Assembly (NCBI RefSeq): GCF_900117455.1
Contig: NZ_FPHO01000002.1
Coordinates: 186,001 to 250,000 of the forward strand
Direction: 5' to 3'
Origin: Hyphomicrobium sp. CS1GBMeth3
GTDB taxonomy: Bacteria; Pseudomonadota; Alphaproteobacteria; Rhizobiales; Hyphomicrobiaceae
DNA: 64,000 bases
Position numbers and translations under genes: made by a program. The notes below the pieces were generated by a model. The model saw only the letters and a program-made list of their open reading frames with translations, did no database searches and was not told the origin of the DNA. This document shows, piece after piece, positions 11,689-39,113 of this stretch. The stretch's first letter is position 1. Each line of letters begins with the position of its first letter.

Positions 11689-12372
11689 ATGCGGGAGGAC
11701 GCAGTGGACTACGAGACGCAGCGCAAGAACATGGTCGAATCGCAGGTGCGGCCCAGCGACGTAACCGATCGCCGGATCATTCGCACCATGCTCGATCTCC
11801 CGCGCGAACGCTTCGTTCCGGAGGCTTATCGGTCGCTCGCTTACATGGATGGGCCGGTGCCGCTCGCAGCGCCCGCGGGCCACGGCGCGCGACGGGCGCT
11901 GCTCTCCGCCCGCACGCTCGCCAAGCTTGTCCAGATCGCGAATATCGACCCGGATGCGGCTGTGCTCGATATCGGTGCGGGCACGGGGTATGGGGCGGCG
12001 TTGCTTGGCCGTCTCGCGGGGCGCGTGGTCGCGCTCGACAGCGACGCAAGCCTTCTCGGTGTGGCGCGCAGGGTTCTTCCCGAGCTCGGTGCGGACGACG
12101 TGACGGTGGTCGAAGGCGAACTCGCGCAAGGCTGGTCACCCGAGAGCCCGTACGATGCCATCGTCATCGAGGGGGCTGTCGAGGAAATCAGGCCGGATTT
12201 GCTCGATCAGCTCAAGGATGGGGGGCGGCTTGTGGCTATCGTCGGTGCCCCTGCGGCCGGGCGGGCGACGCTCTGGCGCCGCAATGGCAACACATTCGGG
12301 CAGGCGAGCATCTTCGACGCTACGGCCGATATCCTGCCGAGTTTCGAAAAAGCGCGGACCTTCGCATTTTGA
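11689..12372 (+). CDS. Protein-L-isoaspartate O-methyltransferase family protein
   Basis: SAM-dependent methyltransferase of the PIMT family, 227 residues. It contains the N-terminal helix with RKNMVESQVRPSDVTDRRI, the region ERFVPEAYRSLAYMD, motif I VLDIGAGTGYGAALL, and YDAIVIEGAVEEI. The usual PIMT repairs isoaspartyl residues in ageing proteins. This version lacks a clear match to the GGQTISQP substrate loop, having APAGHGARRALLS there, so its substrate may differ. The ATG at 11689 and a GTG at 11704 preceded by GGGAGGA are both possible starts. It lies upstream of tolC, an order common in Hyphomicrobiales. Confidence 0.85.
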   Translation: MREDAVDYETQRKNMVESQVRPSDVTDRRIIRTMLDLPRERFVPEAYRSLAYMDGPVPLAAPAGHGARRALLSARTLAKLVQIANIDPDAAVLDIGAGTGYGAALLGRLAGRVVALDSDASLLGVARRVLPELGADDVTVVEGELAQGWSPESPYDAIVIEGAVEEIRPDLLDQLKDGGRLVAIVGAPAAGRATLWRRNGNTFGQASIFDATADILPSFEKARTFAF

Positions 12373-12632
12373 AAAATAGTGCCGCCTACCCCTTGCGGAT
12401 AGCTCGAGCTTTTTTACTCTTCGAGAATGGGGCGGGCTGAGCCTCCGTGCTCGGTTTTTGTGTTTCTTTCCGATATTTCAATGAATTGAACGCGTGCACG
12501 TAAGCGCGGCTCTCGGAATTTCACGGCAAGTCCAGGCTCCGGTGTGTGGGAATGCGGCAACGCTCGCAAGTCCATGCTTGGACAGGACGATGTGTTCACT
12601 TCTGCGAATCGAGCCCGTGTTCTAGAAAAACG

Positions 12633-14165
12633 ATGCGAGTCGCCGTGCCGCATCTGCGGGGCGGCGTCACTTGCAGGGTGGTTGTCAAAATAAACACCAG
12701 GCAAAGTTCGGGGCTAGGTTTGATCTATCTCAGAAGGATTTGCCGGCTTGCGGTTGGTGCTGCTGGAGCGGTGGCCGGTGTCGCCGTTCTCGGTGCGCCT
12801 TCCGCGCTCAAGGCAGAGACGCTGAACGAAGCGCTTGCGGCCGCTTACCAGTACAACCCGCAGCTCGACGCAGAACGTGCGCGCCTCAGGGCAACCGATG
12901 AGGAGGTGACGCGCGCCCGCTCCGGATTCCGGCCTGTGATCACCGGCAATGCGGACATCAATTACGATTGGCAGAAGAACCGTACCAGCACCACGACGAC
13001 CGAGGACACGCTCAAGCCGGGCGGCTACTCGGTCAATGCCGTGCAACCTCTTTTCAGCGGCTTTCGCACCATCAATGCAGTGAACGAGCAGGAGGCCAAC
13101 GTCCGCGCCGGGCGTGAGGTGCTGCGCTCGGTCGAGCAGAATGTGCTCCTGCAGGCGGTCACCGCGTTCATGGACGTGGTGCGCGATCAGGCGATCGTTC
13201 GGCTGCGTGAGAATAACGTCAACGTGCTGACGCGCGAACTGCGCGCGACCGAGGATCGCTTCGCCGTCGGCGAAGTGACGCGCACGGACGTGGCACAGGC
13301 GCAGGCGCGCCGGGCCGGTGCGGTGTCGAATCTCGACCTTGCCAAAGCCAATCTCAAAACCAGCCGCGCAGCCTACGAGCGCGTGGTCGGACACGCGCCG
13401 CAGAACCTTATCGAGCCGAAGGGCTATGAGCGCTTCCTTCCTCGCTCGCTGGAAGAGGCGGTCAACGTCGGCACGCACGAGAACCCGGCGGTGGTCAACG
13501 CTCTCTATCTCGAGCAGGCCTCCAAGTTTGCCGTTGATCGGATCCGCGGCGAGTTGTTGCCGAGCGTTCAGCTCGAAGCTTCCTATTCCGATCGCTTCGA
13601 GACGACCCAGTCCATCAACGAGTCCGAAGGCGTGACCGTAACCGGCCGTCTGACCGTGCCGATCTATGAGGGCGGCGAGGTCTACGCGCGCGTTCGCCAG
13701 CAAAAGCATATTCACGTCAGCCGTTTGCAGGAAATCGAGCAAGCGCGCAGCGAGTCCGAGGAGCAGGTTGTTGCGGCTTGGTCGCAGCTTCTGGCGGCTC
13801 GGGCCCAGATCCAGTCCGATCAATCGCAGGTGGAAGCCAATACGACGGCGCTAACGGGCGTGCGCGAGGAAGAGCGGGTTGGACAGCGCACGCTGCTCGA
13901 TGTGCTCAACGCTGAGGTCGAGCTTTTGAACTCTCAGGTTCAGCTCGTGTCGACGCGGCGCAATCTCGTGGTGGCGAGCTATGCGGTGTTGGCTGCCGTT
14001 GGCCGCCTGGATTCTGTGAATCTCGGCTTCACGTCAGTTTCTTACGATCCTGAAGCAAATTATCAGGAGGTTCGGCGTAAGCCTTGGGGCACTTCGATAA
14101 CCCACTCTGACGGGCGTATCGAAGAGGTGCCGGCCGAGTCGGATTACTCCGGAAGCGCGAAATAA
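12633..14165 (+). CDS. tolC: TolC-family outer-membrane efflux/secretion channel
   Basis: Trimeric outer-membrane channel for type I secretion and RND/ABC efflux. A signal-peptide-like stretch (LAVGAAGAVAGVAVLGAPSALKA) precedes the mature start ETLNEALAAAYQYNPQL, the classic beginning of TolC proteins. Two long coiled-coil repeats follow, each with an outer-strand segment (for example QPLFSGFRTINAVNE and VPIYEGGEVYARVRQ) and helices rich in A/R/E/Q. The C-terminus carries GQRTLLDVLNAEVELLNSQVQL, the second family signature. The open frame begins at 12546; I chose the ATG at 12633, but an even later start at the signal peptide is possible. Likely partners include the RND pump at 54.9-59.1 kb. 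Confidence 0.92.
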   Translation: MRVAVPHLRGGVTCRVVVKINTRQSSGLGLIYLRRICRLAVGAAGAVAGVAVLGAPSALKAETLNEALAAAYQYNPQLDAERARLRATDEEVTRARSGFRPVITGNADINYDWQKNRTSTTTTEDTLKPGGYSVNAVQPLFSGFRTINAVNEQEANVRAGREVLRSVEQNVLLQAVTAFMDVVRDQAIVRLRENNVNVLTRELRATEDRFAVGEVTRTDVAQAQARRAGAVSNLDLAKANLKTSRAAYERVVGHAPQNLIEPKGYERFLPRSLEEAVNVGTHENPAVVNALYLEQASKFAVDRIRGELLPSVQLEASYSDRFETTQSINESEGVTVTGRLTVPIYEGGEVYARVRQQKHIHVSRLQEIEQARSESEEQVVAAWSQLLAARAQIQSDQSQVEANTTALTGVREEERVGQRTLLDVLNAEVELLNSQVQLVSTRRNLVVASYAVLAAVGRLDSVNLGFTSVSYDPEANYQEVRRKPWGTSITHSDGRIEEVPAESDYSGSAK

Positions 14166-14490
14166 TCTCCTTGAGCTTGCCGCACAGGGCAGGTTAGCTG
14201 AGCTGACCTGCTTGTCGATTTGTGTCGGCCTGTGGCATTGCCACATCGTTGCCCACTATGGCGCTTAGCTTGGCGCGCGGTGGGAGTCCCACACACAACA
14301 ATTGAATGATCGGGAGCTGGGTCGGTCGGCGGGTGGTGGCCGGTGACGTCAGCAGAAGAGGCCTCGTTGCCTACGCGCACCGAGGCTGGGGGGTGGCCGC
14401 ATAACTTCGTCGCGGTGCTCACTCGGGGCGGCATCCTATGCGGGTGGGATGTCGGATGTGCTTGTCGTGGAGTGCGTAGGGAGTGGCGTA
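14166..14490. other. Intergenic region between tolC and the first popZ
   Basis: This 325-base stretch has no convincing gene. Besides the hairpin at 14189-14211 it holds a second small stem, TGTGGC-ATT-GCCACA, at 14231-14245. The remainder is GC-rich leader for the first PopZ gene and contains the AGGGAG ribosome-binding site just before its ATG. Confidence 0.6.
14189..14211 (+). terminator. Hairpin after tolC
   Basis: GCAGGTTAG and CTGACCTGC pair over nine positions, including one G-T wobble, with a five-base loop, 24 bases after the tolC stop. Only a mixed TTGTCGATTTG tract follows, so termination is plausible but not certain. Confidence 0.45.
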
Positions 14491-15477
14491 ATGAACATGA
14501 CAGAGAAAAACGGCCAGCCGAGCATGGAGGAAATTCTCGCATCGATCCGCAGGATCATTGCCGAGGAGCCTACAACTCACCCGCATAACGGCGAATTTCG
14601 CGGTACGCCGATCGTGCTCAAGGGCGATGGCGCGCTGGAGGATGCCAGCGAGTTCGACCTTCCGTCGATTTTCCGTTCCTCTCCGCCGTCTACAAACGAG
14701 CGACAGATACCGCTGCTTGGCCGTCTCACCGATGCGATCCGCCACGCCACGTCTTCCGTCCAGCCCGAGGCTGCCGTCAACGGCGAGGCGCATGCGGCAG
14801 AGGCGTCGGCGTCGTCAGGTTCCGGGACGCCGTCTCCGTCAGCAGGGCTCAGCACTTTGAAGTCCGTCCGCCCCGACTTGCACACCGCGGCGGCCCCCTC
14901 CGAACCCGGCCGCCCCGCTGGCAGTGCGCCTGCGAATGGCGCTTCCGTCGCCAACACTCCGTCGCAGCCTGCAAGTCAGCAAAGCGGTCCATTCCCCGCG
15001 GCGGCGTCCGGTGGCCTGGAGCCGCATCGTGTCATGGCGCCTTTCAAGGACACGCATTTCTTGCGCATGTCGGGTCCAACGGTGGAGCCGTCGCCGCAGC
15101 CAACGGCAGCTCCTGCTCCTGTGCCCGCGGCGCCGCCCGTTCAGTATGCGGCGCCGGATTTCAGCGGGATCATCTCCGAGGTGCCGGAGCAGCACGCTCC
15201 CGTCTTCACGCCGCCGCCGGCTGCGGTGCCTCAAGAGCCGATCGCGATGCCACCGCCTCCGCCGCTGCCTCCGGTTGCTGCGGCGCACCCGCAACCTGCC
15301 CCCGTCGCCGCTCCGCCAGCGCCCACAGGCGAGCCGACGGGCACCATCGAGGATGCGACCGCCGATCTGCTCCGGCCGATGTTGCGCCAGTGGCTCGCCG
15401 ATAACATGCCGCGCATGGTCGAAAAGGCGCTTCACATCGAGATGGCCGAGAGCATCAAGGCGCCCCGCAAGCCTTAA
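14491..15477 (+). CDS. popZ: PopZ (DUF2497) polar organiser, first copy
   Basis: Cytoplasmic scaffold that in alphaproteobacteria self-assembles at the pole, tethers ParB-parS and recruits cell-cycle regulators. The protein has 328 residues. The N-terminal recruitment helix is [17 protein letters not shown] (residues about 9-25). A disordered proline/alanine/serine-rich linker of roughly 245 residues follows, then the C-terminal oligomerisation helices (TADLLRPMLRQWLADNM and VEKALHIEMAESI). The ATG at 14491 was chosen because AGGGAG lies eight bases upstream and the family begins there. A second full PopZ gene follows 241 bases later, then valS. The linker is not strongly acidic, unlike that of Caulobacter PopZ. 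Confidence 0.93.
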   Translation: MNMTEKNGQPSMEEILASIRRIIAEEPTTHPHNGEFRGTPIVLKGDGALEDASEFDLPSIFRSSPPSTNERQIPLLGRLTDAIRHATSSVQPEAAVNGEAHAAEASASSGSGTPSPSAGLSTLKSVRPDLHTAAAPSEPGRPAGSAPANGASVANTPSQPASQQSGPFPAAASGGLEPHRVMAPFKDTHFLRMSGPTVEPSPQPTAAPAPVPAAPPVQYAAPDFSGIISEVPEQHAPVFTPPPAAVPQEPIAMPPPPPLPPVAAAHPQPAPVAAPPAPTGEPTGTIEDATADLLRPMLRQWLADNMPRMVEKALHIEMAESIKAPRKP

Positions 15478-15718
15478 GCAGGATTTCGTGCGTCTGGCCT
15501 AAACTTGGGCCCGTCGCCTCGAAATCGTCGCATGCTTCGTTGAGCATATGGCGCGAAGTTTGCGGAAAGGTGCGGAGACGCATTGATGCCCGGCCGGCGC
15601 CGAGGTACGTCTTTCGGATGAAACATCAAATCGTTCGCTCTGATTTGCATGCTGCTGAGCTGCAGACGCCGATGTGCTCGCGGCGTGCATTGGAAGGCGG
15701 CCAAGGCGGCAGGGCAGC

Positions 15719-17281
15719 ATGAACAAACCGGATAAAGCCGGCGAGCCGAGCATGGAGGAGATCCTGGCGTCGATCCGCCAGATCATCGCCGACGAGCCGG
15801 CGGCCGAGCCGCCCGAGACCTCCATCGAAGCCAATCCTCTGGTGCCGCAGTCTCAGGCCGCGCCAAAGGTAGAAGCACCGCAGCCGCTTTCGGACCGGTT
15901 GAGCAACGTGCTGAAGTCGGGGCCGTTGCCGCCGACCAGTCCGTTCGGCTCGAAGCGCCCGTTCTCGTTCGATCAAGACCTCGCCGATATGTTCGACGAG
16001 GGCGACGCGGTCAACGGTGGTGCGGGCGGCGCGCCGAAGCCGGATCTGCGCGTTCCGACCGGGCTTTCGCATCCCATGTCGCGCAAGTCGTTCGTCCCGT
16101 CGCCTCCGCCGCGGGAGGAAGTGGCAAAGCCTTTCACGGATGGTGCCGCCGCGTTGCCCCCGCAGCTTGCTCCTTCCGAGACGGCAGTTCCTCCGCCGCC
16201 CTTTGGCAGCACCGAGCGACCTGCCGCGCCATCGCCTGCGGCCGGGCCTGCACCGGCTCCCTCCTATGGCTTTCCTCCGTTGCGCAAGACTAGCTTTTCC
16301 CCGCCGCAGTCGTCGGCTCCGTCCGCGCCTGCGCCAGGCGTGCGGGCCAACCAGCCGCCGGCTGGCGGGGTCATCAACGGCGCCAACATGACTGCATCAC
16401 CTTCGCCGGGTGCGGGGGCGACACCGGCGAGCCTCGAAGAAGCGCTGCGCGCAGCCCGTGCATCGACTGCGGCGCAGCCGGCTCCAGAGCCTAAGCCAAC
16501 ACCCGCTGCCAACGCGGGGCCGGTTTTGGGCACGGCACCCACGGATACGTTCGCCGCCGGCAACAGTAGCGCGGAGCCTGCGCCGTCGTCTCAGGCGCCT
16601 GCCGATACGAGCCGTCCGGCCTCGCCTTTCGCGGCGTTTGCGCCGTCGACCGCGGCACCGTTTTCTCCCGCGCCCACGGCGCAAGCCACGCCCGAGCGTC
16701 CGGAGGTCACAGCGCCCGCGTCGTCGCCCGCTTTCGGATCGTCGCGGCCCTTCGGCGCCCCGCAGGCGCCGGTTGATGAGCCCGCCGTGAGGCCGCAGCC
16801 CACGTACCAGCCCGCGAGCAAGCCTGCGGAGCCGCGGCCGTTCGCCGGGCCGATCACGGGGATTCCGCCCGAGTCACCGGGTTATTCATCGCAATCTCGC
16901 TTCACAGGGGGTGCCGATCCCACGAGCAGCGCTGCCGCGCACCAGGCACTCGATGCGCTGGCGCTTGGGCTTGCCGCGTCTGCCGCTGTAACGTCGGCGT
17001 CCGTATCGCCGGAGGCTCACTCACCGGCCATTCCATTGACGCCCATCGTCGAGCCTGAGCCTGCACCCGAGCGCGCGCCCACACCTTCGACGCTGCCCGC
17101 GACTGTGCCGTCCTACGGTACAAACGCGCCACCGCGTACGCTCGAGGATGCGGTTGCCGACATGTTGCGGCCGATGCTGCAGCAGTGGGTTGCGGAAAAC
17201 ATGCCGCGCATTATCGAGCGCGCGCTTCGGACCGAGGTCGCGAACACGATAAAGCCGGGCCAGAAGCCGCCGGGCACCTGA
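15719..17281 (+). CDS. PopZ (DUF2497) polar organiser, second copy with long linker
   Basis: Paralogue of the preceding gene, 520 residues. The N-terminal helix [17 protein letters not shown] and C-terminal helices [17 protein letters not shown] and [14 protein letters not shown] are nearly the same as in the first copy. The linker, however, is about 420 residues long and made almost wholly of P, A, S, G and T. The ATG at 15719 fits the family start; the frame is open a further 15 codons upstream without support. The position just before valS is the usual place of popZ in Hyphomicrobiales, so this may be the ancestral locus copy. Polar scaffolding is inferred from the family. How the two copies divide the work is unknown. 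Confidence 0.92.
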
Positions 17282-17484
17282 TCCCCCGGCCGCGCTGCAC
17301 GCCGAGCCTTCGAAAAATGGCCAGCTCTCGCCGATCAGGGTGTGGCTCCCGTATTTTCAGCACATTGACAGAGGCGGAGCGGGTTCGTAGGACGCCAATT
17401 CCCTCAAGTTTCCCCTGCGTCTCGCCGGATATTGACGGCTCCTTCCGAGACGACGATCCCACACCGCAAAGGCTTCCGCGCCCC

Positions 17485-20262
<2,778 letters not shown>

Positions 20263-39097: not shown

Positions 39098-39113
39098 TTA
39101 AGGTTCCCTTAAC
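39098..39113 (+). promoter_or_regulatory. Perfect CtrA-type binding site
   Basis: TTAAGGTTCCCTTAAC matches the full alphaproteobacterial CtrA consensus TTAA-N7-TTAAC without mismatch. The reverse strand also reads TTAA-N7-TTAAC. It ends 41 bases before the ATG of the LysM/LytM lipoprotein gene, in the region where a promoter would be. CtrA control is inferred from the motif only. Confidence 0.7.

Follow-up and report, generated by a model that had tools for sequence, protein, structure and literature searches.

What use would a bacterium have for two unlike copies of a protein that marks its pole? This question is raised by a 64,000-nucleotide stretch of the genome of Hyphomicrobium sp. CS1GBMeth3 (contig NZ_FPHO01000002.1, positions 186,001 to 250,000; hereafter the window), in which two popZ genes stand in tandem on the + strand, between a tolC-like gene upstream and valS downstream. 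Hyphomicrobium are budding bacteria. PopZ is a main model for condensates that mark the bacterial pole, and the papers we found treat it, as far as their titles and abstract openings tell, as one protein. A first-pass annotation had described two complete PopZ paralogues in front of valS, and this description holds to the exact coordinates, with both products above the cut-off of the Pfam family DUF2497. Its main omission was that the short copy is, judged by profile comparisons, a separate orthologous lineage with conserved motifs in its linker. The pair appears to be an old and maintained two-subunit version of PopZ that our literature search did not find in print; two PopZ copies appear in none of the titles and abstract openings of the open-licence papers found. 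The two genes, whose products we name PopZ-B and PopZ-A in the present analysis, are the following:

14491..15477, + strand: popZ1, from the ATG at 14491 to the stop codon ending at 15477, 328 amino acids, the short paralogue PopZ-B (DUF2497 41.2 bits; full-length match to the PopZ-B profile, E value 8.7e-81, with the window's own row included in the profile)
15719..17281, + strand: popZ2, from the ATG at 15719 to the stop codon ending at 17281, 520 amino acids, the long paralogue PopZ-A (DUF2497 43.7 bits; the PopZ-A profile matches 6xry, E value 1e-06)

Both products belong to the PopZ family by their Pfam scores. The DUF2497 match spans profile positions 31-70 of 75 in PopZ-B and 34-72 in PopZ-A at a cut-off of 27 bits, so that the first copy, whose assignment had been left to such a profile search, does group with PopZ. 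The NCBIfam PopZ_fam cut-off of 125 bits is missed by both (popZ1 60.3, popZ2 74.4), and popZ2 is therefore filed under the Pfam family and not under the NCBIfam subfamily. The PopZ-B profile also matches the N-terminus of 6xry (Polar organizing protein Z; E value 0.00098). The two proteins have identical residues at 24 of 48 N-terminal and 44 of 97 C-terminal positions, while their middles are unlike. The genome contains exactly these two DUF2497 matches and no third, and the locus is adjacent to valS.

How widespread is the pair? In the family, 93 of 103 genomes including the own one have a DUF2497 match, with at least two matches in 45, one in 48 and none in 10. With g- and G-numbers denoting the genera and genomes compared and g1 being Hyphomicrobium, two copies are found in 8/8 genomes of g1, 22/22 of g11, 4/4 of g13, 6/6 of g14, 2/2 of g20, in the single genomes of g6 and g18 (1/1 each), and in 1/2 of g15. 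The same 45 genomes all carry a PopZ-B profile match (full-length in 42, full-length in two pieces in 3); 39 of the 45 matches supplied profile rows and 6 are independent. The search across the order that had been proposed along with the first description covered 397 genomes of at least 90% completeness, 26 from this family and 371 from other families, and no tandem pair was found in the latter 371, two of which had more than one match, neither being tandem. In a class-wide sample of 387 genomes (386 without the own one), 8 of the 386 had more than one match, and an adjacent pair on the same strand occurred in none. The tandem pair is thus confined to this family as far as sampled. The multi-copy genomes outside the family were considered as tandem pairs and rejected: G390 is one gene matched twice, and in the others the copies lie on separate contigs or far apart. 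The equal-scoring copies of G885, near contig ends and in opposite directions, look like an assembly duplication. As a separate observation, G688 and G777 of family f161 (L177, L178) combine a standard match with a second DUF2497 match on another contig, in long frames of 466 and 452 amino acids.

For the history of the pair, 80 regions were compared in addition to the window, from 39 of the 45 two-copy genomes, 33 of the 48 single-copy genomes and 4 outgroups of other families (the single-copy G085, truncated at contig ends, has no usable PopZ frame). The arrangement cited as usual, one popZ next to valS, applies to the four outgroup loci, which all have the order PIMT-tolC-popZ-valS. The two-copy loci have the order B-A-valS in g1, g6, g13, g14, g15, g18 and g20, and A-B-valS in all 16 g11 loci examined. 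valS follows popZ wherever the contig extends far enough, barring dispersed copies (L040, L054, L055) and three g8 loci, for which no neighbour was found. In a valS tree of 69 rows, calculated by a quick method after two rows of less than 400 residues had been dropped and with g3, g8, g16, g17 and g24 not included, all eight two-copy genera fall into one 50-row group with a Shimodaira-Hasegawa-like approximate likelihood ratio support (SH-aLRT) of 99. The single-copy genera g7, g10 and g19, in which no PopZ-B match was found, nest inside this group. Because the tree unites all eight two-copy genera, it points to a single ancient duplication followed by losses.

The copies were labelled A and B by gene order, before linker-based hidden Markov models (HMMs) were applied. 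When a linker-only HMM was trained on the 16 B copies of g11 without their end helices and run against 9,045 open frames, it ranked all 23 other B copies first, at E values from 4.6e-10 to 0.019; the first non-PopZ frame followed at 0.12, and no A or single copy was among the best 40 rows. The reverse HMM, seeded with 18 B copies of g1, g6, g14, g15 and g20, found 19 of 21 non-seed B copies, namely all 16 of g11 (E values of at most 3.3e-9) and three more, with its noise including an A fragment at 3.1. Since the linkers recognise each other in both directions, PopZ-B is, as far as profiles can tell, one orthologous lineage across genera, and the reversed gene order of g11 would most simply be a later swap.

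What distinguishes this lineage? Aligned over 39 rows, PopZ-B consists of five conserved blocks, which in the window are located as follows (pLDDT, predicted local distance difference test):

14518..14571, + strand: helix 1 of PopZ-B, the client-recruitment helix by homology (alignment; predicted helix 12-25, pLDDT 87 for residues 11-20)
14650..14754, + strand: motif M1 of PopZ-B, EFDLPSIFR ... LLGRLTDAIR, residues 54-88 (8 invariant columns in 29 aligned rows)
15022..15072, + strand: motif M2 of PopZ-B, the HRVMAPFKDTHFLRMS region, residues 178-194 (D187 invariant; R180, M182 and F185 conserved to at least 90% in 39 rows)
15247..15273, + strand: proline block of PopZ-B, MPPPPPLPP, residues 253-261 (P256 and P260 conserved to at least 90% in 39 rows)
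15352..15453, + strand: helices 3-4 of PopZ-B, residues 288-321 (DUF2497 positions 31-70; pLDDT 88-95 for residues 291-320)

The AlphaFold2 model of PopZ-B (mean pLDDT 55) has helices at residues 12-25, 76-88 (in M1, at low confidence), 188-193 (in M2) and 288-321, and the remainder is without secondary structure and mostly of low confidence. M1 follows the pattern [DE]F[DE]LP[AS][IM]F[KR], then GRL[ST][DE]A[IL], and its strict first half is present in 34 of the 39 B rows, from g1, g6, g11, g14, g15 and g20. The GRLSEAL-like second half is not restricted to B, as it occurs in 11 of 40 A and 34 of 39 B rows (0 of 32 single-copy rows), and the M1 profile matches the A copy of g20 (E value 0.0024); the first half alone looks B-specific. 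Across 385 genomes of the class, with at most 17 candidates scored per genome, the M1 profile found only the own genome at an E value of 0.001. M2 has the pattern RxMxxFxDT. Among the best 120 of 1,037 database homologues, M2 is present in 120 and both M1 halves together with M2 in 119, the halves being spaced by 12-17 residues, and a helix 2-like pattern is present in 0 of the 120; these homologues were picked with a profile that contains the motifs, which makes this a check of constancy and not an independent test. Two genomes hold further copies. G068 of the own genus has a third, dispersed DUF2497 gene (L040:4999-5751, 251 amino acids) with the M1-like sequence DFELPAMFRR and no valS found nearby, which looks like an extra PopZ-B. 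Of the four DUF2497 matches of G089 of g18 (L053, L054, L055), two belong to the valS locus, and the other two are on different contigs and have a strongly diverged helix 1.

PopZ-A is composed differently, with these elements in the window:

15746..15799, + strand: helix 1 of PopZ-A (alignment; predicted helix 12-25)
15968..16000, + strand: acidic motif of PopZ-A, residues 84-94 (FDxDLxDM-like pattern in 19/40 A, 2/32 single-copy and 0/39 B rows)
16925..16990, + strand: helix 2 of PopZ-A, residues 403-424 (predicted helix; block shared by all 8 A copies of the genus)
17141..17248, + strand: helices 3-4 of PopZ-A, residues 475-510 (DUF2497 positions 34-72; pLDDT 87-95)

Its AlphaFold2 model (mean pLDDT 53) has helices at residues 12-25, 403-424 and 475-510 and short ones at 62-66 and 240-247, so that helix 1 and the C-terminal helices 2, 3 and 4 are all predicted; helix 2, with pLDDT values of 68 (residues 401-410), 79 (411-420) and 54 (421-430), is separated from helix 3 by about 50 residues. 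A full trivalent oligomerisation domain was not found in the PopZ-B model, which shows one C-terminal helical stretch, 288-321. On these models, PopZ-B is a PopZ paralogue and not a standard trivalent PopZ, and helix 2 appears to be absent from it. The statement that both copies keep the terminal helices thus stands for helix 1 and helices 3-4, but helix 2 is predicted in popZ2 only. In the family genomes, the DUF2497 match starts before profile position 26 in 16 of 45 A and 0 of 45 B copies. A helix 2 profile made from the 8 A copies of g1 finds the single copies of g19 and g21 (E values 2.9e-5 to 6.7e-4), is marginal in g12 (0.0081), g6 (0.028) and g4 (0.06), and not significant for the A copy of g20 (0.17). 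Its best score for a B copy is 2.6 bits (E value 0.74), which is weak evidence, as the profile also misses the helix 2 of the outgroups, though their DUF2497 matches begin at profile position 1-3.

The linkers are also unlike in length. By the present boundaries they measure 252 residues in PopZ-B and 441 in PopZ-A, close to the earlier estimates of about 245 and 420, and they are indeed not strongly acidic, with an acidic share of only 7.9% in each, net charges of -8 and -9, respectively, and 20-21% proline in both. The four outgroup linkers have a mean of 178 residues and 25% acidic residues. That there are two scaffolds with different linkers is conserved throughout the clade: A exceeds B in length in each of the 39 pairs examined (two A copies are truncated at contig ends). 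The ratio of nonsynonymous to synonymous change (dN/dS) was estimated for the gene pair against four of the seven congeners; synonymous change is near saturation in places and the values are therefore rough. It amounts to 0.07-0.22 for the C-termini of both copies, 0.04-0.12 for helix 1 of B and 0.18-0.69 for helix 1 of A (with few synonymous changes), 0.12-0.18 for M1 and 0.10-0.23 for M2 (one M2 value being undefined), and to 0.24-0.43 and 0.31-0.58 for the whole linkers of B and A, respectively. The helices and motifs are under purifying selection, and the best-conserved differences between A and B are the linker motifs of B and its apparent lack of helix 2, not the bulk linker length.

How could the two proteins function together? 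We tentatively prefer, at somewhat less than an even chance, a mechanism in which A is the main condensate scaffold and B a co-assembling accessory adaptor subunit of lower valency that carries additional client motifs. In the ancestor of the Hyphomicrobium-centred clade, popZ would have been duplicated in tandem long ago, giving rise to two specialised subunits. PopZ-A would be the scaffold; it has a canonical helix 1, helices 3-4, in this genus also helix 2, and a very long linker of low charge. PopZ-B would join the same polar condensate through its helices 3-4, would lower the mean valency of the condensate if it indeed has no helix 2, and may recruit extra clients via M1 and M2. Such a co-assembly is allowed, as the end helices of the two window proteins are still alike. 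The tuning effect of linker length and charge on PopZ condensates, which had been assumed for this locus, is published for Caulobacter, where cohesion stems from the C-terminal helices and fluidity from the linker; among PopZ homologues, a longer linker goes with a lower charge (excerpt of PMC9512792). PopZ-A fits this rule because it combines a long linker, low charge and, in this genus, helix 2, and PopZ-B fits a subunit that joins the A condensate because it seemingly has no helix 2, keeps helices 3-4 and has motifs of its own. Several aspects weigh against the preferred mechanism. Only part of the clade shows a clear contrast in helix 2, and in the A copies of g11 no helix 2 was found by pattern or profile; helix 1 is diverged in the g11 B copies; M1 is degenerate in the four g13 copies and not recognisable in the g18 copy; and any contact or colocalisation of A and B is something that we infer from sequence. 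The unity of the B lineage is also less clear at some points: in the search with the reverse HMM, G078 of g13 was in the noise (E value 1.9) and G075 of g13 was not among the best 40 rows, and the tree of the end helices leaves the B copies ununited, with g11 B apart.

What alternatives exist for a mixed scaffold with an adaptor? A and B could form two immiscible condensates at different poles, for example the mother pole and the bud, owing to their unlike linkers and oligomerisation domains, a reading that we regard as possible but unlikely. The lengths differ in 39 of 39 pairs, the predicted valency differs by helix 2 in this genus, and in Hyphomonas neptunium, the one PopZ described leaves the old mother pole for the bud, and unknown factors by which the four poles are marked are called for (excerpt of PMC6650430). 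However, A and B still resemble each other in helices 3-4, which probably form the surface of assembly; the linkers of the two window proteins are equally low in charge; the sequence gives no sign of two hubs; and the B motifs together with the apparent lack of helix 2 would fit a mixed scaffold with an adaptor at least as well. If the copies were instead largely redundant, serving dosage or backup, with motifs kept for folding or stability and not for new clients, this would agree with the retention of helix 1 and helices 3-4 by both in this genus and with a possible loss of B, no PopZ-B match being found in g7, g10 and g19, which are nested among two-copy genera. Plain redundancy would not keep the strict M1 in 34 of 39 B rows and six genera while the linker otherwise drifts, and we consider it rather improbable. 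A poorer chance is given to the idea that B is no scaffold any more and caps or disperses A condensates as a built-in solvent at some stage of the cell cycle. No helix 2 is predicted in B, and in Caulobacter PopZ, visible condensates were diminished and fluidity was increased when residues 102-132 (assumed here to include helix 2), 133-156 or 157-177 were deleted (excerpt of PMC9512792), but the same features are equally expected of a co-scaffold.

Two further possibilities concern the origin of the copies and the meaning of M1. If popZ had been duplicated separately in g11 and in the other genera and the short copies had converged, this would explain the opposite gene orders (A-B in g11, B-A elsewhere) and the separate position of g11 B in the end-helix tree. 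Such a tree had been proposed earlier; with 68 columns and without five rows in which the C-terminal pattern was not found (G014 A, G010, the third copy of G068, the first part of G094 A, and G001), it is too short to date the duplication, a question for which the linker HMMs and the valS tree served in its place. The tree does not reject a single B clade (approximately unbiased test, p-AU 0.351). The mutual recognition of the motifs would require two motifs to have converged in identical order, which already disfavours independent duplications and renders them highly improbable. Only slightly more credible, and still very unlikely, is a reading in which PopZ-B serves as a dedicated adaptor, linking the condensate at the pole or bud tip to the division machinery via an FtsZ-tail-like M1. 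By eye, EFDLPSIFR resembles the C-terminal peptide of FtsZ (ASEIPVFFK in the own genome, DAELPVFFR in two congeners), a likeness that was tested after it had been noticed; M1 could then compete for FtsZ-tail-binding proteins, and one scaffold subunit would bear a docking motif for division proteins. The M1 profile, however, found no FtsZ in 12 genomes (8 with PopZ-B) at E values up to 10, and its weaker matches do not coincide with FtsZ positions. With a nine-residue score, expressed as the percentage of 746 background C-termini at or above the FtsZ tail, the tails of the B carriers G063 and G067 lie above all 746, followed by G000 (0.7%), G079 (1.3%), G095 (1.7%), G014 (2.4%), G044 (5.0%), G041 (5.6%), G086 (61%) and G047 (80%). 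Similar scores are reached without PopZ-B, by G093 (0.9%) and the outgroup G112 (0.8%), and the likeness of M1 is therefore one to FtsZ tails in general. On the M1 profile null and these similar scores, FtsZ-tail mimicry was rejected as the leading explanation. In an observation on FtsZ itself, the proteins of G041 and G047 (g11) and G086 (g15) (L129, L128, L122) have no ELPVFF-type C-terminal core while PopZ-B is kept, and this core is present in several other family members.

How does the pair compare with known PopZ systems? Caulobacter crescentus PopZ likewise has helix 1, a disordered linker and C-terminal helices, but the mean linker of Caulobacterales has 93 residues and 29% acidic residues, in contrast to the 252 and 441 residues and 7.9% found here (excerpt of PMC9512792), and helix 2 is not predicted in PopZ-B. 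In a control search with DUF2497, Caulobacter was the sole match among 14 named genomes, and this search does not give copy numbers. The excerpt of PMC9512792 mentions no second copy for Brevundimonas, and in the text consulted no tandem copy is mentioned for PopZ of Agrobacterium (PMC5553026) and Magnetospirillum (PMC6414705), the same family by name. The budding relative Hyphomonas neptunium has its popZ in the same genomic context as Caulobacter (excerpt of PMC6650430). The pair is a candidate for the unknown pole-marking factor sought in that work. Long-kept unlike PopZ subunits are a natural experiment on which parts of a scaffold can be divided between subunits, on whether valency and linker length can be set by mixing two proteins, and on whether specific clients are recruited by linker motifs. 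The two genes are neighbours of small size that can readily be tagged or deleted.

The surroundings of the pair contain the following elements:

17485..20262, + strand: valS, the conserved downstream neighbour (gene order across loci)
12546..14165, + strand: tolC-like outer-membrane efflux gene, the upstream neighbour (gene order across loci; start codon uncertain)
11689-12372: PIMT-like gene before the tolC-like gene (gene order across loci)
15516..15615, + strand: conserved non-coding blocks around CTCGAAA-CGTC, TGAGCATA and GGTACGTnTT (alignment of 8 intergenic regions of the genus)

The products of the tolC-like and PIMT-like genes are presumably what these names say, the names being our assumption and not the result of a family search. 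Both genes lie upstream of popZ in 4/4 outgroups and most family loci; a tolC-like match was not found in, for example, G017 and G098, despite about 5 kb of upstream sequence. The conserved blocks lie in the 241 bases between popZ1 and popZ2 and may possibly represent a promoter or leader of popZ2's own. A scan of positions 13900-17800 gave no match to a sigma-70-type promoter. The sequence TTAA-N7-TTAA, which we take to be a CtrA-type site, occurs four times in the window with at most one mismatch and not near popZ, and a perfect copy is located elsewhere in the window, at 39098-39112. Directly 5' of the popZ1 start, about 27 bases (14463-14490; TGTCGTGG-x2-TGCGTAGGGAGTGGCGTA) are near-invariant in 8 genomes of the genus, a conservation that exceeds the needs of a ribosome-binding site.

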